Assembly: GCA_012839765.1 (NCBI GenBank)
Contig: DUMW01000109.1
Span: forward strand, 1 to 39,709
Direction of reading: 5' to 3'
DNA length: 39,709 nucleotides
Source: Bacillota bacterium
GTDB lineage: Bacteria > Bacillota > Limnochordia > DUMW01
Position numbers and translations under genes: made by a program
Shown here: piece after piece, positions 942 through 39,676 of the stretch
Layout of the letters: every line of letters begins with the position of its first letter
Position numbering within the stretch: the stretch's first letter is position 1
The notes under the pieces: generated by a model
The model's input: only the letters and a program-made list of their open reading frames with translations
Database searches by the model: none
What the model was told of the DNA's origin: nothing

Positions 942-3938
942 ATGGACTATGTACACCGATTGGTACGGGCGCTGGCTTTTGCAGTAGTATTTGTTGTACT
1001 GCTCACGAGTTCATCCCAAAGTTTCACGGAATTGCGTGTGGAGCAAATTGGCAATAGGCTCCAGGCTGGAGAAGGATATCTGGAGATAATGGGGCCGATG
1101 GTCTTTATGCATCTCAAGGGCACTCCCTATGAGATGGGGCTTCAACATGGTGCGTTGCTTGCACATTTAATTTCCGCAGAGGAACTGCTGCAGATGAAAG
1201 ATGAGCTAAATCCGTTGAACGCTCAAAGCTCAGGATTTGATCGGCTTGTTCAGGGTTTTAAAAAATTCTACTTTCAGTACAAGATGGCTCCTTGGATTCG
1301 CAGAAATATCCCGGAGCATTTATTTTTGGAGCTCGAGGGCATTGTTCATGGAGTGAGTGGGGGGAAAGATACTGATCCCACGGATGTTATTATCGGCAAT
1401 GTGTATCAGGATCTAAGCATGAGCTTTGGCTGTACCTCCGTAGTGGCTTATGGTGAGGCCACAGCCAGCGGGTCCTTATACCATGCCCGCAACCTCGATA
1501 ATCTATCCATGGTGGATTGGGCGCAATATGGCTATGTGGTAGTTTTTGAACCGGATCAAGGATATCCTTTTATCACTCACATATATCCGATTCAAGCTGG
1601 TACCATGCAGGCCATGAACAACCATGGAATTACTGTTTCCATGAATTATTCTTTAGTGGATCAGGCTGATAACTCGCTCGATGGTATGGCCATGGTCTTT
1701 TTGATGCGTCAAATAGTGCAGTATGCATCAACTTTAGACGAAGCCATCGAAATTGTACTAAGTACACCACGTACCTTTGGTATGAATATTGTGATTTCCG
1801 ACAGCAAGATCCCTGATGCAGTAGTGCTGGAAGTCGATGCAAATCGTTATGCCATACGAAGAGCCGAGGAAGGACTACTGTTTGCCACTAACCGGTATAA
1901 CACCGAGTATATGCAGCAGTTCCAAGCCTCAGGCTGGCTGTCTTCTGTACGCCGTGACGGCCGGATCACTCAGTTCCTTTCCGACAATTACGGAGAGATT
2001 TGTGCAGAATCCATGGTTGAGCTGCTGCGGGATCGGGGTAAGCCCGGCAGTGCCGAATATGAAGGCCTTTTGGACGGAGTCAACAACGCTGGATCTTTGT
2101 TAAGTTGTGTGTTTTCACCCGAAGAGCAGATGGTGTGGATCTCCATTCCCGATGAAGGGCGGGGATCTCCAGACAGCGAATTCTATGCCTTTAGCCTTGC
2201 CAGAGCACTGGCAGGCGATCAGCCGGCAGTCTTTTCGCGAAACATTAAGCCCACCAATGAGGATCACAACCTTGCCAACTGGCTGCTTGTCCGGCAGGCA
2301 GCACTTGCTTACTCCCAAAACCAGTTAGCTGCCACCCTGGATTATCTTGATCAGCTTGATCTCGAGTTTGCTGATGCTGAAGCGGTATTGAATCTAAAGG
2401 CTCGTGCCTGTCTGCGGCTGGGAGACCTAGCGCAAGCTCAACACTACTTCCAGGCCATAGCAGATAGGCCCCATGTATCTGAACCCTATTATCTGCTGGA
2501 AGCGCTGGCCACTCTTGGTTCTTTTCACGACAATGCAGGGGATCGAGCTGCAGCAGTTGAGAGCTATCGAGCAGCCTTGGAAGTACAAACTGCCGATTTA
2601 GGTGGTGACCCTGACTTTTACCGGCAGCTCGCCGGGGTAGGCCTGCAAAGACCTGTTTATATAGAGCATTCCGGCTCTTCGTATTACTTTACGACTAAAG
2701 ATAGTGCCATCGCTCGTTTCCTTAAGGCTCTACAGGTTGTCCCATACAATGATGCCGATTTGTACAACCAGTATGACGGGATGCAAATAGCCAATGTTCG
2801 AATCCTCGGTGCCCACGACACAAATGAAAGGGTAGTCTCTCGGATTATCCGGCTTGAACCAGGTTCATCGTTTGACGCTTCCCAGTTTGCATCCGGGAAG
2901 CGTAGACTTGATGCCCTGGGAGCACTCGATCAGGTTCAAATGCATGTGGTTCCCATACAGGAAAATGCCGTGGATATCGTTGTGCGGATCAGTGAAGGAT
3001 TTGGCTTCTACTTAGACCCTGTCCAATTCGTGATAGAGAATATCTTGAACCTTTCCCACAAGACAATAGCGATTCGGTACTATAATGTGGCAGGGACCTT
3101 GGCATCTATCGGTGGCGAATACAGTTTTGGGCCAAGTCGCCGCAGAACGGCCTACCTGACATTCCCCCTCGGCCTCTGGCCGACTACTGTACGCTATCAA
3201 TCACAAACAACGAACACCAAGCTCGGTTGGGGTAAACATGAGGGAAGTCAATACAGTCTTGATCGGAAGGACATTTCCATCACCAGCAATGTACCGCTTG
3301 GGCATTACAGTGGGATAGGCCTCATGCTGGGATATTCGCAGAGTTACGTTAACGACATCAGTACAACCACAGGCTTTGTTGTACCTAGTGGTGAGTATGC
3401 GACCCTGGCTGCAACGCTCCAAACAGGTATACCCGGTACTACAACTTGGACCCAAGGAGGGACTTCCGTAAAGGCTGGTGTTGCCATCCTGGCAAATAGA
3501 GAAGACTTAGCTGAGAGTTTTACCAGCTGGCACATTGGAGCGAGAAACCTGTCCTATCTTGGGGAAGGCTTTGTTGCTTGTGCAGAGATAACTGCTGCTC
3601 GGACTGAAAGCGGGACTCCGTTTGATCGCAGACTTCGTTTGGGTGGCAACGGGCAACTAGGTACAGATTCTCCCATATTTGTGGGCGAGATGTATCTGTA
3701 TTCTAAGTTGGAAGTGAGGCGTTATTTCACTTATGACCTGGCAGCTCATGTTGATTATGAGGTAGCCAAAATCTGGGAAGATGCAGCTAAAAGAGATCAA
3801 AGCAACCTGCTGCATAGTATTGGTGTGGGTTTAACCTACCAAACACCAATAGGCATAAAAGTTCAAGCACGGTACAGTAAGAATCTGACCTTGCCAGATA
3901 CAGACAGCTTAAGAATTGGCATTGTCAATCCCATATAG
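942..3938 (+). CDS. C45-family autoproteolytic acyltransferase/hydrolase fused to TPR, POTRA and an Omp85-type beta-barrel
   Basis: This is a 998-residue protein. Residues 1-28 look like a signal peptide (basic start, then AFAVVFVVLLTSSS). Residues ~50-420 match the C45/acyl-CoA:6-aminopenicillanate acyltransferase family: the entry motif GTPYEMGLQHGALL, then FGCTSVV with the presumed N-terminal nucleophile Cys164, then LYHARNLDN. Members self-cleave before this Cys and hydrolyse or transfer acyl or amide groups. Residues ~440-548 are helical TPR-like repeats. Residues ~618-685 are a POTRA domain (RLEPGSSFDASQF, RLDALGALDQVQ, IVVRISEG). The last ~310 residues are rich in alternating strands and end like BamA/TamA/PlpD barrels (RLRLGGNGQLG, SKLEVRRYF, HSIGVGLTYQTPIGIKVQAR). 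The loop-6 RGF/Y motif is not recognisable. I chose ATG 942 because it begins the signal peptide; a TTG at 906 is in frame but lacks a ribosome binding site. The substrate is unknown. Confidence 0.85.
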   Translation: MDYVHRLVRALAFAVVFVVLLTSSSQSFTELRVEQIGNRLQAGEGYLEIMGPMVFMHLKGTPYEMGLQHGALLAHLISAEELLQMKDELNPLNAQSSGFDRLVQGFKKFYFQYKMAPWIRRNIPEHLFLELEGIVHGVSGGKDTDPTDVIIGNVYQDLSMSFGCTSVVAYGEATASGSLYHARNLDNLSMVDWAQYGYVVVFEPDQGYPFITHIYPIQAGTMQAMNNHGITVSMNYSLVDQADNSLDGMAMVFLMRQIVQYASTLDEAIEIVLSTPRTFGMNIVISDSKIPDAVVLEVDANRYAIRRAEEGLLFATNRYNTEYMQQFQASGWLSSVRRDGRITQFLSDNYGEICAESMVELLRDRGKPGSAEYEGLLDGVNNAGSLLSCVFSPEEQMVWISIPDEGRGSPDSEFYAFSLARALAGDQPAVFSRNIKPTNEDHNLANWLLVRQAALAYSQNQLAATLDYLDQLDLEFADAEAVLNLKARACLRLGDLAQAQHYFQAIADRPHVSEPYYLLEALATLGSFHDNAGDRAAAVESYRAALEVQTADLGGDPDFYRQLAGVGLQRPVYIEHSGSSYYFTTKDSAIARFLKALQVVPYNDADLYNQYDGMQIANVRILGAHDTNERVVSRIIRLEPGSSFDASQFASGKRRLDALGALDQVQMHVVPIQENAVDIVVRISEGFGFYLDPVQFVIENILNLSHKTIAIRYYNVAGTLASIGGEYSFGPSRRRTAYLTFPLGLWPTTVRYQSQTTNTKLGWGKHEGSQYSLDRKDISITSNVPLGHYSGIGLMLGYSQSYVNDISTTTGFVVPSGEYATLAATLQTGIPGTTTWTQGGTSVKAGVAILANREDLAESFTSWHIGARNLSYLGEGFVACAEITAARTESGTPFDRRLRLGGNGQLGTDSPIFVGEMYLYSKLEVRRYFTYDLAAHVDYEVAKIWEDAAKRDQSNLLHSIGVGLTYQTPIGIKVQARYSKNLTLPDTDSLRIGIVNPI

Positions 3939-4091
3939 AGAAGGCTCATAACGATTTTCCAAGGAGCTTACAGGAATTTCATTATGACCCGTGGGCGAAA
4001 GTGAGTCAACAAAATCTGGTGAATCATCTTATGTTATGGATATCGGTAATCGAGTTGGTGCAGGATGAACAAAATCAAAGGAGTGTCAAAC

Positions 4092-4703
4092 ATGTCAAGA
4101 TCTAAAGGACGACTTTGTAGTGGGTTGTATCAAGTTGGGGCGGTTAAGAGAACCATCATCATTTGGCTCCTTCTCCAGTCTGTACTCTGGCTGTTTTTCG
4201 CAGTAGGATATTGGGCAAAGCCTGGTGCGTGGGTAGATGTGCAGACAGTAGCACCTTCCAGCGCAGCAGTCGGCGGGGTGGCCACTACAGCAGGCTACAT
4301 CGTGGCCAGGAACTGCATCGTGCTGCTGCTAATTGGTGCAGGTAATTTATTGGTTCGGTTTGGTTCGGTTACTCCTGGTCTGTTAGTACTACTTGTTCAG
4401 GGCGCGGCAATTGGTTGGGTAGCAGGGACGAATAGCTTTGAAGTTCCGTTTGCTAGTGTGGCGGCGGCAAACATGCAGTATTTGCGAATAGGCTTATGGG
4501 AGACAAGTGCCTATGCCATTTTTTGTGCAATTACTCTCACCAAATCATTGCTTGTCGCTAACAGTTTTCCCGCTAGGGAGTGGGCTGAACAGCATACTTT
4601 GCGATCCCTGAAGTTTACCGGTACAGAAATAGCATTAGGTCTGTTGGCATTTCTTTTTCTGGTCGGAGCAGCCTTGGTCGAAGCATTATATCTCACGAGA
4701 TAA
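4092..4703 (+). CDS. SpoIIM/DUF95-like integral membrane protein
   Basis: A 203-residue polytopic membrane protein with about five hydrophobic segments. The order of features follows the SpoIIM/DUF95 family: a first helix, a conserved Asn in a second helix (ARNCIVLLLIGAGNLL), a Gly-rich segment (LLVLLVQGAAIGW), a helix starting ETSAYAIFCAI that corresponds to the family's E-x-x-A motif, and a last helix ending in AALVEALYL. Canonical SpoIIM works in the engulfment complex, but many DUF95 proteins lie outside sporulation and their role is unknown, so no specific function is claimed. ATG 4092 is chosen because AAAGGAG lies at the right distance; an upstream in-frame ATG at 4065 has no such site. 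It lies between the barrel-fusion gene and a CPBP protease gene on the same strand, possibly co-transcribed. Confidence 0.5.
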   Translation: MSRSKGRLCSGLYQVGAVKRTIIIWLLLQSVLWLFFAVGYWAKPGAWVDVQTVAPSSAAVGGVATTAGYIVARNCIVLLLIGAGNLLVRFGSVTPGLLVLLVQGAAIGWVAGTNSFEVPFASVAAANMQYLRIGLWETSAYAIFCAITLTKSLLVANSFPAREWAEQHTLRSLKFTGTEIALGLLAFLFLVGAALVEALYLTR

Positions 4704-4840
4704 GAGCAGTGAAGACATTGTGGATTTGCCTTATACTACGGCAGTCGAGAAAAGTTTGACCAGAGGGGATCAGAATGAACGTTAGTAAAGCGGTCCATCT
4801 CAAGCATCACATGTAATCTACGGAAGAATAGGTGGTTGTC

Positions 4841-5743
4841 ATGGTGAAGAAACTTTTAGGTTTTTACCAGCGCTTAGTATGTCATCCTGTGCCTATTATC
4901 TTTGCGCTGGCGTTTTTATCTGCAAAAGTATGGTCCAATACTTCATATGGTGGTAATCTGTTCAACGGATTACGCTCTGGTATCGTAGGCATTGTAGTCT
5001 ATGGACTTGCCTTAGGGATAATATACCTCCTGTCAGAGAAGCCTTTAGGGGAACGATTCGCTGTGCAGAGATTGGAGCCAAGACAGGCAAAGCGAGGTGC
5101 GGTGATCGTTTTTATCATTTATTTGTTCATCCTGGGCTCGATTGTGGACAGATTGCAGAGACAAGGGTTTATGCCGGGGCATCCATTGTTTTCAGTGATC
5201 CCGGGATGGAATCTTTGGCATAATCTTTTCAATGAATTTCCAGGGGGATATATGACTGCCAACATTGTACGCAGCTTGCCATTCTTCGTATTTATTCCTG
5301 CCTTTGTTTTGTATAGATTAGGAGTGAAGCGGGGAGGGCTTGGCTTTTCTGGAGGCGATTTGAAACCTGCGCTCCCGTTTTTGATTATCTACATGATAGC
5401 ATTCCTCTTTAGTGGCTTGACAATAGAACGCTGGGTTTTTCTATTTTACGCCATATTGTACGCGGGATTTCAAGAAGAGTTCTTTTACCGCGGTGTGATG
5501 CAACCTTTGTTCATAGCCATCACCAAGAAACCAATCTGGGGGATCGGTCTGTCTGTATTGTTGTTTGCTCTCTTGCACATTCCAGATTTTGTTTTTCGGG
5601 TTTATCCTACTGTACCCTTGGCTTTAAGTAGTGTTGCGAGCACCGGATTGTTTGGAGGCTTGCTGGCCTATGGGGTTTATCGTACAGGAATGCTCTGGCC
5701 TTGGATCCTGATCCACGCTCTCAGTAATGTGGTAGGTTTTTAG
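4841..5743 (+). CDS. CPBP-family intramembrane metalloprotease (CAAX protease-like)
   Basis: A 300-residue protein with about eight hydrophobic segments. The three signature motifs of the CPBP (Abi/Rce1) family are present near the C-terminus: QEEFFYRGVMQ (EExxxR), LLFALLHIP (FxxxH) and ILIHALSNVVGF (HxxxN). These residues form the metal and catalytic site inside the membrane. Family members cleave membrane-bound substrates or protect against peptides; the target here cannot be read. ATG 4841 is used because AGGTGG lies just upstream; an in-frame GTG at 4832 would add three residues. It is the last of three consecutive plus-strand membrane or envelope genes and is followed by two hairpins (5815-5837, 5859-5903), of which the second may terminate transcription. 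Confidence 0.85.
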   Translation: MVKKLLGFYQRLVCHPVPIIFALAFLSAKVWSNTSYGGNLFNGLRSGIVGIVVYGLALGIIYLLSEKPLGERFAVQRLEPRQAKRGAVIVFIIYLFILGSIVDRLQRQGFMPGHPLFSVIPGWNLWHNLFNEFPGGYMTANIVRSLPFFVFIPAFVLYRLGVKRGGLGFSGGDLKPALPFLIIYMIAFLFSGLTIERWVFLFYAILYAGFQEEFFYRGVMQPLFIAITKKPIWGIGLSVLLFALLHIPDFVFRVYPTVPLALSSVASTGLFGGLLAYGVYRTGMLWPWILIHALSNVVGF

Positions 5744-9696: not shown

Positions 9697-12648
9697 TCAG
9701 TCACTCCCTTCAGCCTGCTGCAAAACGCTGCGGAGATCTTCAGCACTGGTAATACCGAATTCCTCCTGCTTTCTCTTCAGTTCTCGGTTAATATCACGAA
9801 CCGCTTCTTCGAGAGCCTCCATTGGGTTCCACCCTTGCAGAACCACCCGGTTCCAAGCGTTCTTGATATGCCGGTCCGTGTAGTAACCGCCCAATACTAC
9901 CGGGATTTCCTGGAACCATTCCCACTGCTCCAAAATAGCCTCGATATCTTGGCGCGGCCACGGGAGAGACTTCAACGCCTCAACGTTAGCTGTGTTCCAT
10001 CGGGCTTCGACACCGATCAACGCTTCGAGCTCTGTTCCGTATTGGGCTTGCACTTCCGCGCTGGTCCACCACTTCAAGAACTCCCATGCGGCCTCGGGAT
10101 CATCACAGTCTCTCATAATAATGGCAACCTGTGACGAACCTCCAGCACTTCGGTCAATCACACCGTCTTCTCTCATGCGGCCAGGCATCGGCGCCATCTC
10201 CCACCATCCGGTAATCTCCGGAGCGGCAGTGGATAGCTGAGTATACACTCCGTAACCTGCTACACCGATGGGAATCTCACCGGTACGCATCCGCATGTAG
10301 AAGTTGGCTTCCATCGGAATCCTATAACTGGTATACAGGTCCGTGTATTCCTTAAAGGCCTGTAAAGCTTCAGGCGTATCCAGCGCCGACCTCAATCCGT
10401 CGTCAGTGTAGAACTGTCCTCCATGCTGGTATAGGAAGGGCATAAACCCAGCACTAGAACCACCACCGCCGTAGTAGAAGTCAAGTCGGTTGGCATGGAG
10501 GGTCGGAATCATCTTGTAGACATCTTCCCAGGTCTGCGGCGGTTCAAGCCCTAACATACCGAGGATATCGGTACGATAGAACATCATCGAGAAGTCCTGG
10601 TTCTCAGGCAGGGCGTAAACTCCTCCCCGATACTCAAAGGGAGTCATCGCACCAGGACGGAACCGCTGGGCTACTTCCTCAAAATCAGGGAATTGGGATA
10701 GATCCACCAACCCATTACGAATCGCAAACTCTACAGGCATTGTAGGCGGTACGCCCAACGCCAAGTCTGGACCCTGTCCCGCCACGGTGGCTAGCAACAA
10801 CACCTGGGTTTGGTTCGAGGGAAGAATATTCATATTCACATGGATACCTGTTACCGGGGTAAAGGTCTCCTCAGCCATCTCCTTGATGATCTGAGTCCAT
10901 TCACGACCACGTAGAGACCAAACCTCCAGGACACGGCCTTCCTCATGATAGCTTCCTACACCGGTGTAATCCTTGTTGAAGGAATCCCGGAAGTTGAAGA
11001 AGCTAAGGCTCCATCTTTCCCAAAGACTAGACCTGCCGCGAGGCTCAGGCATGTCTGGGCTAGCAAAGGCGATGTAGTCCATTCTAAGCGACTTGTTCTG
11101 CAGGTCCAGGATCCATGTCCCCAAGGACTGTTGGTTGGTCTGGAAGCGCTCAAGTCCAAGAACCATCCGGTCCGGGTCATCCAGGAACTGATCAAGTTGC
11201 TCTAAGACGATCAGAATACTGTTGGCGATAATCGGTCTCTTACCCAGCGCCAATTCAGTAAGGAAATCTACCTCACCGGCCAACTCTTCACGGATGGCCT
11301 GCAAGTCCTCGATCAAATTGGGAATACGCTTTTCCAACTCCCATTCCATGTTCGGGTCGGGATTTCGTCCAATTAGCATACTGACCCTGTGACCCAAATC
11401 AGCCATTTTCCGAATGGTGCTAGTAAACACGTTGACAGTACGGGCCACTTCGCCCACCTTAACGGTCATAGTCAAGGTGTGTTCCCCAGCTTCCAACGGA
11501 ATCAGATAGGGCTGACCATTTTCATCGGAAAAGACTTCAATGCGCCAGTGCTTATCACGGTAGAAGTTGACTTCCTTCATTTCCTCAAAGAGGAACTCAC
11601 CGTCAATTCGAATAGAACGAACCGAAGGTAGGTGCTCGTCCTGGTATACGCGCATAATCAGTTTATAGAAGCCTGTCTCGGGTACGGTAAACTTCCAGGT
11701 AACCTCTTGATTACCCTTACGCCAACGCCAGCCGCCGAATTCATTCAAGCGCCACTGGCCAGCTGCGAAGGGCTCAGAAAGGGGATCGGAACCAAATTCC
11801 CGACGGATAGTAGCGTCGCTCTTAGTGTAGGTGTCTTCGGCTTGGAACTTGACAAAAACGTTCTCGACCTCTTTATAGCCTTTCGCCCTATATTCATTCA
11901 AGACTTCTTCGTAAGTTGGTACCTTCTTCAGGCCACCGAGGACGATCGTGTCAATGGCGATTGGCTCAGATAGGGCCTCTAAACGAATAGTATGGGTACC
12001 TTCTTCTAAATAGAACAGAACCGGATCAATATATAGACCATCGGGATCATACAGTTGAGTTGTAATCCATTGCTTGATCTCAACCTGAGCCGGTTGCACG
12101 TCATTACCGCGGTTATCCTGAATTGGAGGTGCGGCATCTCGAAATAGCCGATTGAATTGGAAGCGACGGGCTTCCCTGAAAGGATACTCGCCGTCAATCT
12201 TCAGCGCTCTACGGATAGGTGCACGCTTGCCTTCAATCGGATAGTAGGTGAAGGTCATCGAATACAGACCGGATTTGGGAATCTCGACGGTCCATTCGAC
12301 CCACGTATCCATGGTTTCGCTTTCGCGCCAAATTAGGATCTCGCCGGTGCGCCCATCCAACTCGCTAACCACTTCCAAAGTGTCTGCATTGGTATCAGAA
12401 TAGTGCGCTCCTTTTATGACGACTTCAACGTCACTAATCTCATACCCTTGTTCCTTATAAGTTTGCATCATGTTCCAGTAGGGCTCTTCCGGTAACTCAA
12501 AGAGACTGGCCCGTACATCAGCGGAAGCATAGGCTTTCTGCAAAGCAAACTGCAAGGAAGCAATCACAAACATGCCAAGCAGCACTATAGTCGCTACCGC
12601 AAGGCGCATGCGTCGCTTGTCCGGAACCCTTTTTGTAATCGCAACCAA
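9697..12648 (-). CDS. Very large extracellular solute-binding protein with two N-terminal beta-sandwich modules
   Basis: A 983-residue protein, about twice the usual ~430 for this family. Residues 14-43 are a signal peptide ending near KAYASA; there is no lipobox Cys. Two related modules follow, at about 76-239 and 261-411. Each begins with an EQGY/AKGY helix, has WTVEIPKSGLYSMTF versus WKFTVPETGFYKLIM, then LKIDGEYPF versus IRIDGEFLF, and ends with an EEGTHTIRLEA/EAGEHTLTMTV strand. They resemble carbohydrate-binding beta-sandwiches, but I cannot name a family. A helical linker (~412-570) leads to a family 1 solute-binding domain (~575-950), with GQGPDLALGVP and DCDDPEAAWEFLKWWTS as typical landmarks. 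TTG 12648 is chosen because GAGGAGG precedes it by 8 bases; a more upstream TTG at 12690 lacks a site. It probably delivers a polysaccharide fragment to the two permeases. Confidence 0.88.
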   Translation of the reverse strand: MVAITKRVPDKRRMRLAVATIVLLGMFVIASLQFALQKAYASADVRASLFELPEEPYWNMMQTYKEQGYEISDVEVVIKGAHYSDTNADTLEVVSELDGRTGEILIWRESETMDTWVEWTVEIPKSGLYSMTFTYYPIEGKRAPIRRALKIDGEYPFREARRFQFNRLFRDAAPPIQDNRGNDVQPAQVEIKQWITTQLYDPDGLYIDPVLFYLEEGTHTIRLEALSEPIAIDTIVLGGLKKVPTYEEVLNEYRAKGYKEVENVFVKFQAEDTYTKSDATIRREFGSDPLSEPFAAGQWRLNEFGGWRWRKGNQEVTWKFTVPETGFYKLIMRVYQDEHLPSVRSIRIDGEFLFEEMKEVNFYRDKHWRIEVFSDENGQPYLIPLEAGEHTLTMTVKVGEVARTVNVFTSTIRKMADLGHRVSMLIGRNPDPNMEWELEKRIPNLIEDLQAIREELAGEVDFLTELALGKRPIIANSILIVLEQLDQFLDDPDRMVLGLERFQTNQQSLGTWILDLQNKSLRMDYIAFASPDMPEPRGRSSLWERWSLSFFNFRDSFNKDYTGVGSYHEEGRVLEVWSLRGREWTQIIKEMAEETFTPVTGIHVNMNILPSNQTQVLLLATVAGQGPDLALGVPPTMPVEFAIRNGLVDLSQFPDFEEVAQRFRPGAMTPFEYRGGVYALPENQDFSMMFYRTDILGMLGLEPPQTWEDVYKMIPTLHANRLDFYYGGGGSSAGFMPFLYQHGGQFYTDDGLRSALDTPEALQAFKEYTDLYTSYRIPMEANFYMRMRTGEIPIGVAGYGVYTQLSTAAPEITGWWEMAPMPGRMREDGVIDRSAGGSSQVAIIMRDCDDPEAAWEFLKWWTSAEVQAQYGTELEALIGVEARWNTANVEALKSLPWPRQDIEAILEQWEWFQEIPVVLGGYYTDRHIKNAWNRVVLQGWNPMEALEEAVRDINRELKRKQEEFGITSAEDLRSVLQQAEGSD

Positions 12649-12699
12649 TTGGACAACCTCCTCTTCGTAAATCAACCCGACTCCAATCAATAGCAGAAA

Positions 12700-30786: not shown

Positions 30787-33700
30787 CTAATCACTCCATT
30801 GGGTAAGCACCGCGGATTGTTCTCCGAGGGCCTTGGCATAGACCACAACACTGTGGTGCCTGCCGTCATCCTGCAAGGGGATGGCCCCATCCTCCAAAGG
30901 CACATCATCGAAGAAAACCGGCTGGGCCACCTCCGCTTGATTGTCCACGGTGATCTCATAGATGGTATTCCGATAGCGATATCGGAGGGAAAACCCGGGC
31001 CAGTGGTCAGGGATCCGGGGACGGATCACCATCCTGTCCTTCTTGATTTTTATCCCCAAGGCACTCTCCACGATCACTTTGTACACCCAACTGGCAGAAC
31101 CTGTATACCAGGTCCAACCGCCCCGCCCCACATGGGGATAGACACCGTAGATATCCGCGGGGACCACGTAGGGTTCCACCTTGTACCGCTCCACCTGTTC
31201 CGGGGTCAAGGTGTGATTGATGGGACTGAGCATCAGGAGAAGTTCCATGCCCCGGGCCCTTTCCCCCAAAAGTAGCTTGGCCAGGACCACCCAAGTGGCC
31301 GCATGGGTATACTGTCCACCATTTTCCCGCACTCCGGGGACGTAGGCCTTGATATAGCCTGGTTCCAGCCGGGTGTTGTGAAAGGCCGGGGTTAACAACT
31401 TAATGATCCCGTCTTCCTCGGATACCAGGTAATCGTCCACGGAACGCATGGCTGTTTTCACCCGGTTCTTGTCCCCTTCCCCGGAGATCACAGCCCATGC
31501 CTGGGCGATGGCATCGATCTTGCACTCATCGTTTTCCTTGGAACCCAGGGGTGTGCCATCGTCAAAGAAGGCCCGCATATACCATTCCCCGTCCCAAGCG
31601 TGTTGCTCGATGGCATTACGGATCCCTTCGATCTGTTCCCGAAACCGCTCTACCAAATGCTCATCCCGTTTCAGCCGGCACAGGGGGATGAAATCCTTCA
31701 TGACCCGACAGAGGAACCAACCGAGCCAGACACTCTCACCACGTCCCTGCCAACCGATCCGGTTCATGCCGTCATTCCAGTCGCCGCCACCCATCAAGGG
31801 CAAACCGTGAACGCCAAACTTCAACCCATATTCAATTGCCCTTAGGCAATGCTCGTAGACGGTACCGGTTTTATCCGAAAGTTGGGGCACCTCGTAGCGC
31901 TCTTGCTCGTGGTCTTCCAAGGACCGGCTGCGCAGGTAGGGTACCTCTTCATCCAAAACACCGGTGTCCCCCGTCACTTGTACGTACCTGGCCGTGACAA
32001 AGGGTAACCAGAGGTAATCGTCGGAGAACCGGGTACGCACTCCCTTGTTCTCCTCCGGATGCCACCAGTGCTGTACGTCTCCCTCCTCGAACTGGTGCGC
32101 CGCTGCCCGCAGAATGTGTTCTCGGGTGATCTGGGGAGAGGTGTAGACCAAGGACATGACATCCTGTAACTGGTCCCGATACCCATAGGCTCCCCCCGAT
32201 TGATAGAACGCGGAGCGGCCCCAGTAGCGACAACTGATCACCTGGTACAACAGCCAGCCATTGACGAGGTAATCCAGGGAGGGCTCCGGTGTACGCACCA
32301 TAAGCCGTCCGATGAGTTCGTCCCAGTTGCTGCGCACCCGATCGAATTCCCCCTGAACTGCCCCTTCTTGGCGGAAACGGCTAACCAAGTCCTTGGCCTC
32401 CTGCCAGGTGGCACATTCCCCAAGGAGGAAGGTCACCTCTGTAGAAGCACCCGGTTCCAGGGTCACCGGCACAAGTATGGCCGCGCAGGGAACCATGGCC
32501 GCTCCCACCCTTCCCGACAGTTGCACCTGCTGGAGGCCAATGGGATCCGTGAGGGAACCGTTCCGACCTAAGAACTCCAGTCGATCGCCGGTGTAAGAGA
32601 AATCTTCGGCCAGTGTAGCCAGAAACGCCACATGGTCCCCGTAGTGTTCCCGGGCCCGGTTGGTGATTACCAATCCGTTCAGTTGTGGATCAAAGTCGGT
32701 CACCACATATTGGTAGGTCTCTTCGGGCAATACGCCCAGCACCGGTTCCAGGTAATAGGATACTCCGAGACTGCGCCGGCGATTGGATTTGTTCTGCAAC
32801 CGGATCCGGATGAGCTTCACCGGATCATTGGCTGCCGCGTACAGGTCCACCGTCTGATGCAACCCTTGGTCACCGTATTCGTATCGGGTGTACCCAAAAC
32901 CATGGCGGGTCACATAGGGATTCTCTCCCCGGATGGGAGCGGCGGTAGGGGACCAGATCTGTCCCGTCTCCTGATCCCGCAGGAAAATGGCCTCGCCGTG
33001 TAACGGGATCACTGGATCATTGGTCCAGGGAGTAAGGCGATTTTCCCTGCTGTTTTTCGCCCAGGTGTAGCCCCCGCCGGTCTCCGTGGCCAGGAACCCA
33101 AACTGCTCGTTGGCGATCACGTTGATCCAGGGAGCCGGGGTGCTTTGCCCCTCCTCGAGAATAATCACATATTCCTTCCCATCGGGAGTAAAGCCACCGT
33201 ACCCATTGAAGAAGCGCAGTTGGTTGACCAGCGCCACCGTATCGATCTTGTAATCATAGGCCACCGCAGGACGCGCCGGCTGCAATTGTTGGGGTTTTGT
33301 CCCCCGGGCCATCTTGATTCGGGGTTGGCAAGCCTTCAGACCACCGGGGCCCATCAGCACCAAACGGGCACTACTAAACAGGGCATCGAGTTCCTCCCTT
33401 TTCAGAAGACTTGCCTGCTTAAGGAAGACACCGCCCGGCCGATTTTCCTTCATTTGGGCATGGCAGCTTTGGATCAGTTGGCGCAGGTGGTGATGGAGCA
33501 GGTTAGCGTAATCCACTTCCTGCTCGTTGAGGATCACCACATCCACCGGCAGTCCCTTCATCCGCCAATACTCATGGGCCACCAAGACCTGCCGGACCAG
33601 GTCACCGTCATCTAACTGCCGAACGCGCAGCAGCAAGATGGGATGATCCCCCGAAAGACCCTGGGACCACAGAAACTTCTTCACAGTCCGGGCAATACCT

Positions 33701-36700
33701 AGGGTCTCCTCGCGGCCTTGAAAACACTTAGGCTCCGCAAACAAAAGCTGTGAGGCTAGCCGCTGGAAGAGATGGGCTTCGTCCAGGCTGACGTTTAGGT
33801 AACGCAACTCCACTTGGCTGCGGGTCCACGCCAGATCGAAGGCCCGCTCCACCATAGCCGTATCATGGTAGTTACCAGCCAAATCGACAGCAGCCTGCCG
33901 GGAAGAAGTAACCGCGACAGAAAACACCACCGAGGAAGTTTGGCCCGGCGCCACCCGGATCCGGCGTCGAAGACTCATACAGGGATCCAGCACCGCGCCC
34001 GCGGTACCCCCTAGTTTACCACCGTAGATCCCCGCGGGATTCTGCACCGTCTGATCCCTTCCAATAAAACGACTCCGATCGGTCTCATATTCTAACTCAC
34101 CCACCACTTGCCCATCCACCGCCACGGTGTGCATAACCCACAGGGGAGTACGATCCTGTTCTCTAGCTCGCCGTGTCGCCAACAGGGCATTGACTTCTGG
34201 AACATACTCCGTCAGGACAAAGAGGTTGCCGAAGGCCGGGTGGGCCGCATCGGCCTTAGGGTGATCCAGCACCACTTCGAAGAAGCTGGTAATCTCCAGC
34301 ACACAGGGTTCAGTGCCATGGTTGGTAACAGAGACCCGACGGATCTCCCCATCGTTTTCGGAACAGACAATGATCTCGGTCACGGTCTCAATGTCCTGAT
34401 CCACCCTCCTGAATTCTGCCTTATCCTCGGCAAAGGTCACTTCATACTCGTCGGGAACCACCCGGGTGGGTTGGTAAGTGGCGGACCAAACCGCGTTGGT
34501 ATTCAGGTTTCGAATGTAGATGAACATGCCGCGGTCGTTGGCCACGGGATCCTCCCGATATCGAGTAATGCTCTGATCCCGCCATTTACTGTAACCAGAC
34601 CCACTGTTGGTAAGCATGATGGAATAATCGCCATTGGAGGCCAGGTACACCTCCAACCCACCGAGGTCTGCTTTGCTGAAGCGACGATGCATGGCAATCC
34701 CCACGGGAGCCCTCCTTTGTACCGTCCAGCGCGTGACGGGTTCTTGATCCACCACCGAAGGCTGCAAGGGAAGCCGCTCCTGCAGGAGCATTTCCGTTGC
34801 CTTCACGTAAGGGTCCAAATGGAAACGTTGTTGCATAATCCCATCGTGAAAATAGTTGGCTAAAGCCAGAAAGCTCATCCCCAGATGGTGTACCATGAAG
34901 GATTTCACCACCACGTAGTCAGCCCCCCGTGGCAGCCGTTCCTTGGTGAAATCCACGGCCTCATACAAGCCATATTTCCCCTCCATGCCCAACTTCGCCA
35001 ATCGTCTCAGGTTTGTGGTGGCCGTAACCGGATCCACCATCAAGGCCAGGAAGGAGGCATAGGGGGCCACGATCAGATCACTTTCCATCCCCCGCTTTAG
35101 GGCAAGGGTGGGGACGCCAAAGGCCCGATACTGGTAGTTCAGATGCAGATCCATGGCATTAAAGGCACATTCAGAGATCCCCCAGGGCACCCGGTGCTGC
35201 TGTCCATAGCGTACCTGCTCCTGAACCGCGGCCATGTAGGTATCGTCCCACAGGGTGTGGGGATAGTTCTGCATGATCAGTAGCGGCATCAGGTATTCGA
35301 ACATGGTGCCGGTCCAAGAGACCAAAGCCCGGGAACCGCCGGCCACGGTGACCATCCTCCCCAGGCGGAACCAGTGCTTTTGCTCCACATCCCCTTTAGC
35401 GATGGCCAGAAAACTGGCCTGTCTCGCTTCCGAAGCCATCAAATCGTAGTGCACCCGGCTTAAGCGGTTTTCTTCCAGGTTATATCCGATGGAAAAAAGC
35501 TTCCGCTCCGGGTTGTACAGTCTCCGGAAATCCATGTTCAAAACGGTCTGCATGGCCGCAGAGCACAAATCCTCCAACTGATCTGCCAGCTCTTCCACCT
35601 TGTCACAGGTAACCAGCAAAGCTTCCCGAAGAGAATGCCACTGGGGATCTTCTCCACCCAGTTTTCCAACCTGCTCCTTCTTTTCCCGTAGTCCTTGGAG
35701 ACTGGTCATGGTCCATAACAGCTTCTGTTGCTCCGGTGCCAGCTTTAACTTCGCGGCCTCCCGAAGCCAGGGCAAGTATTCGTCGGCCTCGGCCAAGAAG
35801 GCGCCAATCATGTCCTGCAGTTGCTCTACCCAGTACCCGTGGACCAGTTGCTGCCCCATCCTTTGGGCCAAGGCTTGTAGGTCCTCCAGGATCCGGAGCC
35901 CTTCCCAAGGGAGAAGCTTGGGGTCCTGGAGTCTGTCACAGAGCGTACGGAAGTCCTGGACGTAGTCCTTGACCACTTCTTCCGAGGCTACCACCAAGAA
36001 GGTGTCCCAAAGGCCCCGGCCGATCTTGGCGAAATCTAACAAAGGCCCTTCTGCGACCTGATTTAAGCCTTGGACCAAGGTAATCAGGTAGCCCGCAAGG
36101 TTACCGCTGTCCACGGTGGAGACGAAGCGGGGCTCCAGGGGTTTCAAAGTCTCGGTGTCGTACCAGTTGTACAGATGGCCATGCCAGCGTTTCAGACGTA
36201 ACATGCTGGCAAAGGAGGCCTCTAAGCGGTCCAACATTTCCCTGACCCCAATATAGCCGAAATCCCAGGCCGCGAGATTCGCGATCAGCCCTAACCCAAT
36301 ATTCGTGGGCGAAGTACGGTGGGCGATCTTGAAATGGGGCTCCTCCTGGATGTGGTCCGGTGGTAACCAGTGGTCCTCAGGCCCAATAATATCCTTAAAA
36401 TACTGCCAGATCTTGCGGGTCTGCACCCGCAGGTATTCCCGGTCCTGGGCAGAAAGGGCAGCCCGGCGGCGCTTAGTGGGTAGACTGACCCAAAAGGCTA
36501 AAGCAGGCGCCACCATCCAAAGGGCCAGCATCGGCAGGATCGGTGCCAGAAATCCAGGGGTGATGGCAAAAACCAAGACCCCAACAAGAACACTGAATAC
36601 CGGACACGGCCACATTCTCCCAAAGAACCCCTGCACATTGGTACCCCGCCGGCGCTCCGCATCGAAAGCGGTGACCCATTCCAACAGATTCCGCTTGGTG

Positions 36701-39447
36701 ATCCCCAACCGAAAGAGAGTACGCACAATGGCGTCGACCATCAGCCAGGCTTGATGGGGTAAGAAGGCAAGTAAAAGAAAACCTTGCCGCAAAAGGGAAC
36801 GGGCATCAAAACTGGCCGTCCAGAGGTGTCCAGCAAAGTGAATGCCCCGGGGTAGACTCATCAGGGCGCTAGCTAAGTGGGACAACACCGGGTATAAGAC
36901 GGTCAGCCCGAAGATGGTCAGAAGCAGGGAAGCCCGCTCAGACCACAGGGTTATGGCCGTGACAAACAGGACCACCAGGCTGATGGGCAGCAGACTGCGC
37001 CGCAGGTTATCCAGGATCTTCCAACGGGCCAAGGGGCCGAGGGGGTTGGGCTGCCATTGGCCAGCACTGTTGCGGATCTTTGCACGAAGGTAGGGCAATA
37101 GCTGCCAATCTCCCCGCACCCAGCGGTGCAGCCTGGAGGTATAGGCCGGGTAGTGGGTGGGGTATCCGTCCAGGAGCTCCACATCGCTCACCAGACCCGC
37201 CCGGATAAAGGACCCCTCCAAAAGATCATGGCTCAAGATCCGGTTTTCCGGAAACCGCCCACCCAGAACCTCATGGAAAGTATCTAAATCGTAGATCCCC
37301 TTACCAGTAAAACTGCCCTCGCCAAAGAGGTCCTGGTAAACATCGGACACCGCGGTGGTGTAGGGATCGATCCCCGTTTGCCCCGCAAAGGTCCGGGAGA
37401 ACAGGGTGCTAGCGGCACTGACCACCGAAATGCCGATCCTAGGTTGCAGCACCCCGTAGCCCGCCACCACGATACCCCGTTTGGCATCGAGCAAGGGACG
37501 GTTCAAGGGGTGGGCCATGGCACCGATCAAGCGGCGAGCCGTATCCCGCACCAGGTTGGTATCGGCATCCAGGGTGATCACATATTTTACCCCCTCAAGC
37601 TCCGGCGGCAGTTCCTGGAGGAAGGTGGTGTCCCGGACACCCTTTAACAAGGCATTGAACTCCTCCAGTTTGCCCCGCTTGCGCTCCCAACCCATCCAGC
37701 GGTTTTCCCGGGGGTTATATAAGGGTCGGCGGCAAAAGAAGAAGAACCGGTCCTCCCCCTCATTGCCATAGATGGCGTTTAACCGGGCCGCTTCCTGCGC
37801 GCCGGTCTCCAGGATTTCCTGATCAGTTTGTGCGTGTTCCTCCTGTCGATCCGTGAAATCACCCAAGAGGGCGAAATACAGGTGGTCCATGGCATTGGCC
37901 AGGTAGTATACTTCCAACTGCTCGAAAAGCTCCCGTACCCGTTCGGCATCGGGCAGGAGGGTGGGCACCACCACTACGGTCTTCGCTTCCTTAGGAATCC
38001 CGTGTTTAAACTCCAACTTCGGAATCACCCGGGGTCTTAGGACCCGGGTAATCAGGGAGTTCACGGTGGTCACCACCAGATCACTCACGGGGATCAGCAA
38101 CACCAAACAGGCCCCCATAAAGGACCAACCCATCCCCACCAAGGAAGCCAAGAACACCGTAAGCAGCCCTGTGGCCAACCCAATAACGGCCAAGTAGGGA
38201 ATAATCGGGTATTTAGACACCCGGTACCAGAACGATGGCTTGGCCCCCAGGGCCTTCAGCAAAGATTCCTTGCCGTCGTCCAAAAGATAATAGCCCACGT
38301 GACTGGTGCGGAGATCGGAGCCTTCCCGGGCCAGGGAGACCGCCTGACGGGCCACTTGGACCTCGGAAATCCTGAGGGTCTTCGCCAATCTCTCCACCTG
38401 ATGCCGGTAAAGATCCCTGCCGGCAAAATCCATTTCCCCATAGACCCCGTTGGGATCCTCCCGGAGGATCCGTTCACACGCGTTCAGTTTTTCGAAGTGA
38501 TCGGACCAATCCAAGGAAGCCAGAAAACGCAGGCTGCTAATCCGGTTGCCCATGGCCACCTTCCGAGCCGATTGGCGCTGATGCTCCAAGTGAACCAATT
38601 CTTCGGCATCTAAGCCCTCATCGGCCAGGAACCGTTCCAACCAACAGGTGATGTCCACCGCGGTACCCCCCTGGTTGCGAAAGCGGTACAGCAGTTCCAC
38701 AATGAAGGCCGCATCCTTGGACTTGAGTTGGGGTAAGAAACGCCGTAGTTGCCGGCTCAGGTCCGCAGGTTCACCGTCAAAGGCCTCCATAAGCCTTTGG
38801 GCCCATTTGTCCGCCTTGTGCTGGTTACGGAAAGTATGAAGAATTTCCAAGGACAGATCACTAATCTCTTCGATGAGGGCTAGCTTGAGCAGTGCCGGCA
38901 GTGCCCACACTTCCCCGATGGAAAGCAAGGACACCGATTGATAACCCCGCAGAAAGACCGAAACGACCTCGTCGTCAATGCGCCCGTCGGTGTGGCTGAC
39001 GATTTCCTGAGCAATGGCATAGGCCCGGGGCAATCCTTTCTGGGGACCACCGGCAAGCTTAGGCAGATCCCGGTAGTAACCCACGGGCAGACTGTATCGA
39101 ACATCCTTTACCGCCGCTTGGATCACGTAGTAGTTGTCGAAGAACCACTCCGCGGCTGGAATAATATGGTCCCTGCGATCCACCGCCTTGGAAACGTAGC
39201 GATATACCGTACGCAAAAGATAGTCGATCTCACCTAGATCGGGGAGCTTCCCCTTCACAGCCCCATCCCCCAACCGGTGGCGGGTAGCCACATCCCGGGC
39301 ATGTTGCTCCAGCTGGGCGGAACTCAGTAACACCTCCTCGGAGCGATCGTCCCGACCCTTGGTAATCAACTGCCGGCGCCGGTTGAGACGCAGCAGGATC
39401 AGGAATCCAATGATCAAATATACAGCTAGCACAATCTGTAGCAGCAT
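30787..39447 (-). CDS. Cyclic beta-1,2-glucan synthase-like protein (GT84 plus GH94 domains)
   Basis: 2886 residues, one of the largest enzyme types in bacteria (NdvB/ChvB family). A first helix (LLQIVLAVYLIIGFLILL) is followed by a helical domain, then membrane helices near 410-460, 825-870 and 950-990. Between them lies the inverting glucosyltransferase domain, with YVITLDADTNLVRDTARRL near 620 as its DxD region. A glycoamylase-like domain (~1000-1500) starts at HRTSPTNIGLGLIANLAAWD. Two GH94-type beta-sandwich/catalytic halves follow (~1600 and ~2090 onward), with GGGDWNDGMNRIG near 2552 and VGRGGWTWYTGSASWVYKV near 2770. Known relatives build UDP-glucose into beta-1,2-glucan, set its length by phosphorolysis and cyclise it. 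ATG 39447 starts the first helix, with AGGAGG 13 bases ahead; an ATG at 39600 has no site. Confidence 0.93.
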   Translation of the reverse strand: MLLQIVLAVYLIIGFLILLRLNRRRQLITKGRDDRSEEVLLSSAQLEQHARDVATRHRLGDGAVKGKLPDLGEIDYLLRTVYRYVSKAVDRRDHIIPAAEWFFDNYYVIQAAVKDVRYSLPVGYYRDLPKLAGGPQKGLPRAYAIAQEIVSHTDGRIDDEVVSVFLRGYQSVSLLSIGEVWALPALLKLALIEEISDLSLEILHTFRNQHKADKWAQRLMEAFDGEPADLSRQLRRFLPQLKSKDAAFIVELLYRFRNQGGTAVDITCWLERFLADEGLDAEELVHLEHQRQSARKVAMGNRISSLRFLASLDWSDHFEKLNACERILREDPNGVYGEMDFAGRDLYRHQVERLAKTLRISEVQVARQAVSLAREGSDLRTSHVGYYLLDDGKESLLKALGAKPSFWYRVSKYPIIPYLAVIGLATGLLTVFLASLVGMGWSFMGACLVLLIPVSDLVVTTVNSLITRVLRPRVIPKLEFKHGIPKEAKTVVVVPTLLPDAERVRELFEQLEVYYLANAMDHLYFALLGDFTDRQEEHAQTDQEILETGAQEAARLNAIYGNEGEDRFFFFCRRPLYNPRENRWMGWERKRGKLEEFNALLKGVRDTTFLQELPPELEGVKYVITLDADTNLVRDTARRLIGAMAHPLNRPLLDAKRGIVVAGYGVLQPRIGISVVSAASTLFSRTFAGQTGIDPYTTAVSDVYQDLFGEGSFTGKGIYDLDTFHEVLGGRFPENRILSHDLLEGSFIRAGLVSDVELLDGYPTHYPAYTSRLHRWVRGDWQLLPYLRAKIRNSAGQWQPNPLGPLARWKILDNLRRSLLPISLVVLFVTAITLWSERASLLLTIFGLTVLYPVLSHLASALMSLPRGIHFAGHLWTASFDARSLLRQGFLLLAFLPHQAWLMVDAIVRTLFRLGITKRNLLEWVTAFDAERRRGTNVQGFFGRMWPCPVFSVLVGVLVFAITPGFLAPILPMLALWMVAPALAFWVSLPTKRRRAALSAQDREYLRVQTRKIWQYFKDIIGPEDHWLPPDHIQEEPHFKIAHRTSPTNIGLGLIANLAAWDFGYIGVREMLDRLEASFASMLRLKRWHGHLYNWYDTETLKPLEPRFVSTVDSGNLAGYLITLVQGLNQVAEGPLLDFAKIGRGLWDTFLVVASEEVVKDYVQDFRTLCDRLQDPKLLPWEGLRILEDLQALAQRMGQQLVHGYWVEQLQDMIGAFLAEADEYLPWLREAAKLKLAPEQQKLLWTMTSLQGLREKKEQVGKLGGEDPQWHSLREALLVTCDKVEELADQLEDLCSAAMQTVLNMDFRRLYNPERKLFSIGYNLEENRLSRVHYDLMASEARQASFLAIAKGDVEQKHWFRLGRMVTVAGGSRALVSWTGTMFEYLMPLLIMQNYPHTLWDDTYMAAVQEQVRYGQQHRVPWGISECAFNAMDLHLNYQYRAFGVPTLALKRGMESDLIVAPYASFLALMVDPVTATTNLRRLAKLGMEGKYGLYEAVDFTKERLPRGADYVVVKSFMVHHLGMSFLALANYFHDGIMQQRFHLDPYVKATEMLLQERLPLQPSVVDQEPVTRWTVQRRAPVGIAMHRRFSKADLGGLEVYLASNGDYSIMLTNSGSGYSKWRDQSITRYREDPVANDRGMFIYIRNLNTNAVWSATYQPTRVVPDEYEVTFAEDKAEFRRVDQDIETVTEIIVCSENDGEIRRVSVTNHGTEPCVLEITSFFEVVLDHPKADAAHPAFGNLFVLTEYVPEVNALLATRRAREQDRTPLWVMHTVAVDGQVVGELEYETDRSRFIGRDQTVQNPAGIYGGKLGGTAGAVLDPCMSLRRRIRVAPGQTSSVVFSVAVTSSRQAAVDLAGNYHDTAMVERAFDLAWTRSQVELRYLNVSLDEAHLFQRLASQLLFAEPKCFQGREETLGIARTVKKFLWSQGLSGDHPILLLRVRQLDDGDLVRQVLVAHEYWRMKGLPVDVVILNEQEVDYANLLHHHLRQLIQSCHAQMKENRPGGVFLKQASLLKREELDALFSSARLVLMGPGGLKACQPRIKMARGTKPQQLQPARPAVAYDYKIDTVALVNQLRFFNGYGGFTPDGKEYVIILEEGQSTPAPWINVIANEQFGFLATETGGGYTWAKNSRENRLTPWTNDPVIPLHGEAIFLRDQETGQIWSPTAAPIRGENPYVTRHGFGYTRYEYGDQGLHQTVDLYAAANDPVKLIRIRLQNKSNRRRSLGVSYYLEPVLGVLPEETYQYVVTDFDPQLNGLVITNRAREHYGDHVAFLATLAEDFSYTGDRLEFLGRNGSLTDPIGLQQVQLSGRVGAAMVPCAAILVPVTLEPGASTEVTFLLGECATWQEAKDLVSRFRQEGAVQGEFDRVRSNWDELIGRLMVRTPEPSLDYLVNGWLLYQVISCRYWGRSAFYQSGGAYGYRDQLQDVMSLVYTSPQITREHILRAAAHQFEEGDVQHWWHPEENKGVRTRFSDDYLWLPFVTARYVQVTGDTGVLDEEVPYLRSRSLEDHEQERYEVPQLSDKTGTVYEHCLRAIEYGLKFGVHGLPLMGGGDWNDGMNRIGWQGRGESVWLGWFLCRVMKDFIPLCRLKRDEHLVERFREQIEGIRNAIEQHAWDGEWYMRAFFDDGTPLGSKENDECKIDAIAQAWAVISGEGDKNRVKTAMRSVDDYLVSEEDGIIKLLTPAFHNTRLEPGYIKAYVPGVRENGGQYTHAATWVVLAKLLLGERARGMELLLMLSPINHTLTPEQVERYKVEPYVVPADIYGVYPHVGRGGWTWYTGSASWVYKVIVESALGIKIKKDRMVIRPRIPDHWPGFSLRYRYRNTIYEITVDNQAEVAQPVFFDDVPLEDGAIPLQDDGRHHSVVVYAKALGEQSAVLTQWSD

Positions 39448-39676
39448 AGGCTTCCAGTGACCTCCTCGGACAAATGCTACTCCCTGATGGCTAGTGTTTC
39501 TCAAAGGGCTCCGGATTAAACATCCAAGGCTAGGGGGAAGGCTGATCGACGGTGAAACCTGCCCGTCGGGTAGTAGTAATTTGTACTGAGGTTTTGACAT
39601 AAGGTTTGTGGGGTTGGGACGGTTTTTCGTTGTCGCGAGAAAAAGTTCTGTGGCGTTGCAGGAGATCCAGAAAATT

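Follow-up and report, generated by a model that had tools for sequence, protein, structure and literature searches.

A C45 Ntn-hydrolase in one chain with a BamA-related outer-membrane barrel in Limnochordia, and the possible use of the barrel as an anchor

When a hydrolase and an Omp85-type barrel are encoded as a single chain, the barrel may carry the enzyme to the cell surface or may simply hold it at the membrane. This question is raised by a gene in a 39,709-nucleotide stretch of a Limnochordia genome (contig DUMW01000109.1; the whole stretch is called the window here), the product of which the earlier note had read as a type Vd-like autotransporter displaying a C45 N-terminal-nucleophile (Ntn) hydrolase. 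A TTG codon at position 906 is an alternative start, giving an open reading frame 12 residues longer. In a profile scan all domain matches fall in a single frame, the C45, TPR and POTRA domains being recognised by profiles and the barrel by AF2 modelling, Foldseek and hhalign, so that the domains named in the earlier note are indeed present in one open reading frame. Feature coordinates are collected in Table 1.

Table 1. Features of the C45-barrel gene and its downstream neighbours (window positions)
Feature	Position	Strand	Basis
Open reading frame, 998 amino acids	942 to stop 3938 (coding 942-3935)	+	ATG start
Signal peptide, Sec-type, residues 1-28, without lipobox Cys	942..1025	+	sequence MDYVHRLVRALAFAVVFVVLLTSSSQS; AF2 low-confidence break at residues 22-28
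C45 Ntn-hydrolase head, residues 33-440	1038..2261	+	NF040521, PF03417, Foldseek IAT/NAAA
Cys164 nucleophile codon; expected self-cleavage site Gly163/Cys164	1431..1433	+	alignment; cleavage inferred from family
TPR helices between head and POTRA, residues 441-570	2262..2651	+	Pfam TPR_8/TPR_2; AF2 helices
Single POTRA, residues 613-685	2778..2996	+	PF07244; beta-alpha-alpha-beta-beta in AF2 model
Predicted helix at BamA beta-1 position, residues 693-705	3018..3056	+	both AF2 models; BamA/TpsB alignment
Omp85-type beta-barrel, residues 708-998, 15 strands by DSSP	3063..3935	+	AF2 model, hhalign, Foldseek
L6 loop; (V/I)RG(Y/F) lid-lock tip replaced by LGTD	3606..3689	+	alignment
Hydrophobic protein, no family match; conserved at the position immediately downstream of close C45-Omp85 homologues	4065..4703	+	neighbourhood comparison
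CAAX (Rce1-like) protease, downstream in several close homologues	4832..5743	+	PF02517; neighbourhood

A sensitive profile search covering the window's own phylum found the C45-TPR-POTRA-barrel architecture in at least 13 genomes. Within the class the frame is unbroken in G069, G066, G061, G050, G051, G020, G024 and G017, the last being a single-contig genome of 3.8 Mb, and continuous in G026, where the contig ends within it; G079 and G183, beyond the class label, carry the architecture as well. The host genome itself holds a second copy on another contig (G000:C95:3063-6056, locus L039), 78% identical to the window gene. Whole-gene dN/dS is 0.12-0.18 wherever computable and well below 1 in each domain, the part 3' of Cys164 being the most constrained region or nearly so; the gene is under purifying selection. 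Broken copies also occur, with one in-frame TAG in G062, a frameshift in G038 and a gene spread over contigs in G014; the first two are as expected of fragmented metagenome-assembled genomes, and no support was found for reading the gene as a chimera of two genes joined by assembly, a case the earlier note had allowed for, or as a pseudogene. Because the architecture recurs and is maintained by selection, we consider such an artefact exceedingly improbable, and with intact frames in other genomes and the second copy at hand it was ruled out. A scan of viral contigs gave no relatives of the window protein, and among plasmid records no full-length relative was found, the best matches being barrel-less C45 proteins covering at most 38% of the query.

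The host is a spore former, since a gene for the GPR spore endopeptidase lies within the window, and several lines of evidence concern its outer membrane. Limnochordia are diderm by microscopy (PMC11456536). In the host genome a BamA gene adjoins OmpH/Skp-like and LpxD-like genes, and LpxC is also present. Omp85 proteins were found in 71 of the 73 genomes of the class; Omp85 matches were present in every checked genome with a barrel-linked C45 enzyme, and LpxC in all of them except one; two genomes with barrel-less C45 relatives have neither. Elsewhere in the window, a 2937-residue protein with GH94 and glucoamylase-like domains (positions 30787-39600) resembles cyclic beta-glucan synthase of the NdvB type, which is unusual in a Firmicute and fits a periplasm, and a sugar ABC solute-binding protein (9697-12690) has about 590 extra residues before its binding domain. 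TpsB translocators were noticed in Limnochordia genomes (L162-L165, L167 and L169), several of their genes adjoining the end of a long repetitive frame that resembles a TPS exoprotein.

The head belongs to the C45 Ntn-hydrolases, both the profile match and the nucleophile cysteine being present. NF040521 (C45_proenzyme) matches residues 59-397 with an E-value of 2.7e-50, over its cut-off, and PF03417 (AAT) matches residues 178-404 (E 1.9e-19). The nucleophile had been placed at Cys164, in the sequence FG-CTS, and this residue is invariant: in an alignment of the 25 closest heads, all 24 letters at the position are Cys. In Foldseek comparisons the head resembles isopenicillin-N acyltransferase (IAT, PDB entry 2x1c; TMt 0.77) and NAAA (6dxw; TMt 0.73). 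With IAT (2x1c/2x1d) and the bacterial C45 proenzymes of NF040521 it shares the fold, the cysteine following a propeptide, and Asn184 and Asp186; those enzymes, however, are soluble, whereas export and attachment to an outer-membrane barrel are predicted for the window enzyme. The lipid amidase NAAA is likewise a cysteine Ntn amidase of similar fold, but of a different family. Enzymes of the C45 family cleave themselves before the nucleophile cysteine and then consist of two chains, and by analogy the window protein is expected to do the same before Cys164, as the earlier note had reasoned. Exported and tethered as it would be, the enzyme is unlikely to use acyl-CoA. As we know of no acyl-CoA in the periplasm, hydrolysis or lipid transacylation would be likelier than CoA-dependent transfer. 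The neighbouring genes, for the CAAX protease and the small hydrophobic protein, give no clear pointer to a substrate; our guess, from the NAAA-like structure and the location, would be acyl-amide lipids.

Behind the head, the TPR helices (TPR_8 at residues 520-549, E 8.8e-6) are modelled at a pLDDT of about 90-98 up to residue 550, and are followed by one POTRA domain, which the earlier note had also named and which PF07244 matches at residues 616-686 (E 2.4e-7). The AF2 model used here was made from a 56-row alignment (pLDDT 89.9, pTM 0.86) and replaced a first model from 11 close homologues (pLDDT 55). Its pTM implies a fixed arrangement of head, TPRs, POTRA and barrel in the model, rather than a flexible passenger. 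The barrel has diverged too far for any Pfam Omp85 model to match it in the window protein itself. Homologues of the barrel exceed the PF01103 cut-off, and TIGR03303 (BamA) matches residues 614-802 (E 1.1e-12), below its equivalog cut-off. The modelled C-terminal region is a barrel, as had been predicted, with TamA and BamA as its best Foldseek matches (TamA, PDB entry 4c00, E 1.3e-13), and hhalign against BamA of the same class gives an E-value of 7.7e-37. By the homology of its POTRA and barrel to BamA and TamA, the protein is a member of the Omp85 superfamily, but differs from those two proteins in having one POTRA, an enzyme head, a helix for beta-1 and, in the window's clade, no lid-lock.

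The lid-lock of Omp85 proteins is formed by the motifs (V/I)RG(Y/F) and (F/G)xDxG (PMC4490367). In the alignment for these bacteria, (V/I/L/A)RG(Y/F) and its partner aspartate are kept in 9/9 BamA and 6/6 TpsB sequences, but the arginine and the aspartate are both lost in all eight members of the window's C45 clade, the window protein included. In fusions to S41 peptidases the arginine is lost in six of six and the aspartate is retained in one, while the most distant C45 fusions (G024 and G020) and the barrels encoded by separate genes retain RGY or RGF (RSF in one) together with the aspartate; as judged from these alignments, lid-lock loss is not universal across enzyme-linked barrels. All 24 members have a segment at the position of BamA beta-1, mostly of the form (D/S/E)P-x(2)-F...NL, and in both AF2 models of the window protein a helix takes the place of this gate strand. 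The 15 strands correspond to beta-2 to beta-16 of BamA. Loops on the L6 side have a mean length of 10 residues and the turns on the opposite side of 4.3, which fits a placement of L6 outside and of the carboxy-terminus in the periplasm. If the barrel closes with 15 strands, the chain would enter beta-2 from the outside, and then either the helix would cross the lumen or the head would be outside. Alternatively, residues 685-692 (EGFGFYLD) may form an irregular first strand beta-1, the helix then being an outer loop of the modelled barrel.

In a POTRA-barrel tree rooted on TpsB, the 24 enzyme-linked barrels form one group (support 100/99), from which the BamA (97/90) and TpsB (100/100) proteins of the same and related genomes stand apart. 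The group comprises 12 C45-fused, six S41-fused, five split and one solo barrel. The S41 fusions are found in G051, G054, G060, G152, G125 and G163; they intermix with the C45 fusions at the base of the clade, and the number of head changes is thus not readable from the tree. In family f35 (G091, G306, G352 and G172), the C45-TPR and POTRA-barrel proteins are encoded by neighbouring genes and both have a signal-like amino-terminus, which shows that the two parts belong together; in G205 they are on separate contigs. G034 and G013 encode C45-TPR proteins that lack a barrel, and G015 encodes a barrel that lacks an enzyme. On this sequence evidence from relatives in other diderm Firmicutes, the heads are modular on a shared barrel clade.

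Several further proteins were noticed in these genomes. The S41-POTRA-barrel fusions of the same clade (L040, L041, L042, L103, L104 and L105) are apparently undescribed, and a stand-alone divergent S41 peptidase gene lies upstream of the L039 copy, a pairing also seen in L005 and L018. In G024, a barrel-less C45-TPR paralogue (L051:4361-6052, contig C85) apparently has threonine in place of the nucleophile cysteine. G091 encodes further barrel-linked hydrolases of these bacteria, namely an aminopeptidase-like protein of the gluzincin type (HELAH) with a strand-rich carboxy-terminal region and a weak Omp85 signal (L175:2429-5437) and a propeller-type protein adjoining a separate Omp85-like barrel gene (L176:1261-3499). 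Upstream of the split pair of G352 lies a patatin protein (L108:882-2627) with a strand-rich carboxy-terminal region without any Pfam match.

The comparison with PlpD and FplA (PL-Omp85, 'type Vd') bears on what the barrel does. Signal peptide, amino-terminal hydrolase, one POTRA and carboxy-terminal Omp85-type barrel in one chain are common to all three, but PlpD and FplA carry a patatin Ser-Asp lipase where the window protein has a C45 cysteine Ntn-hydrolase and a TPR spacer; no patatin-like domain (PF01734) was found in the window protein by the Pfam scan, and the different passenger class proposed in the earlier note holds. The window barrel also lies outside their Pfam family Omp85_2 (PF19143), which does not match the window protein at any E-value up to 1 and has no hit over its cut-off in the 73 genomes of the class. 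The claimed autotransport of the head to the cell surface, where its substrates would be amides outside the cell (signals, beta-lactams or lipids, for instance), draws on this shared domain order, and a 15-stranded barrel with L6 outside would have its first strand starting outside. However, PlpD is itself periplasmic: its patatin domain stays against the POTRA without sign of secretion, and FplA was not detected on the cell surface (Hanson et al. 2024, PMC11116518). A folded 44-kDa enzyme, together with its TPRs, would need to move through a barrel that has neither gate strand nor lid-lock and is nearer to BamA/TamA than to TpsB. Related genomes own TpsB translocators with intact motifs for export, and in the model head, TPR and POTRA form a single rigid unit. 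We consider surface display unlikely and do not retain the autotransporter assignment.

Secretion by two partners, in which the barrel of the split form would translocate the C45-TPR protein and the fusion would be its covalent version, agrees with the gene order, enzyme then barrel, and with the lid-lock arginine and aspartate of the split barrels. TpsB translocators carry two POTRAs; the barrel here has one and stands apart from TpsB in the tree, and the enzyme has neither a TPS domain nor a beta-helix, making this reading very improbable. The identity of the barrel as a TpsB translocator was dropped, given its separate clade. The protein might instead be an active BamA/TamA-like assembly factor whose built-in enzyme would edit or acylate substrates. 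Such a role would account for the BamA homology and the TamA/BamA structural matches, but a canonical BamA is also present, the POTRA is single, and beta-1 and the lid-lock are absent in the window's clade; we regard it as decidedly unlikely. Rather doubtful, too, is the more far-reaching idea of a diderm Firmicutes Omp85 subfamily that would have abandoned insertase work and would now serve as a general-purpose socket for interchangeable hydrolase heads (C45, S41), with a helix for the gate strand and a barrel closed with 15 strands. Odd-stranded barrels have so far been described just for the 19-stranded mitochondrial barrels (PMC7586230); if true, closure with 15 strands would place such a barrel in the outer membrane of a bacterium.

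The barrel has probably lost its role as an insertase and become an anchor that keeps an amide hydrolase at the outer membrane's periplasmic face. We favour this reading because of the PlpD precedent, the rigid head-TPR-POTRA unit and the eroded barrel motifs; it would be weakened by a 15-strand closure, which would need the helix across the lumen or the head outside, and the lid-lock residues kept in the most distant C45 fusions and the split barrels also count against it. Its computed bases are the domain order, the conserved nucleophile, the IAT/NAAA-like fold, the exchangeable-head clade, the lid-lock loss and the predicted beta-1 helix. POTRAs are periplasmic in every characterised Omp85 protein, and PlpD forms a homodimer and has a lid touching the barrel; loss of PlpD alters phospholipid levels (PMC11116518). 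In the proposed sequence of events, the protein would be exported by Sec and its BamA-derived barrel inserted in the outer membrane, where it would no longer act as insertase or translocator but as an anchor. POTRA, TPRs and enzyme would remain periplasmic, the enzyme close beneath the inner leaflet, and after cutting itself before Cys164 it would act on amide-linked substrates, probably amphiphilic, that reach the periplasmic face, hydrolysing or transferring their acyl groups, much as PlpD acts on phospholipids there; the substrate class is again a guess.

Omp85 barrels serving as a platform for another domain are known from the WD40-, metallo- and patatin-Omp85 architectures of Heinz and Lithgow (2014), the main text of which describes neither a C45 nor an S41 head. 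In the open-access literature we found no earlier report of a C45 enzyme or Ntn-hydrolase joined to Omp85. A cysteine Ntn-hydrolase and an S41 protease would thereby join the very short list of Omp85-borne enzymes, in a bacterial group where such enzyme-barrel proteins seem not yet described. The system occurs naturally in fused and split forms, with swapped heads and without the barrel, and these versions offer new proteins for the disputed 'type Vd' question of head secretion against mere anchoring, and if the favoured reading is right, they would show the reuse of an essential insertase fold as an anchor.
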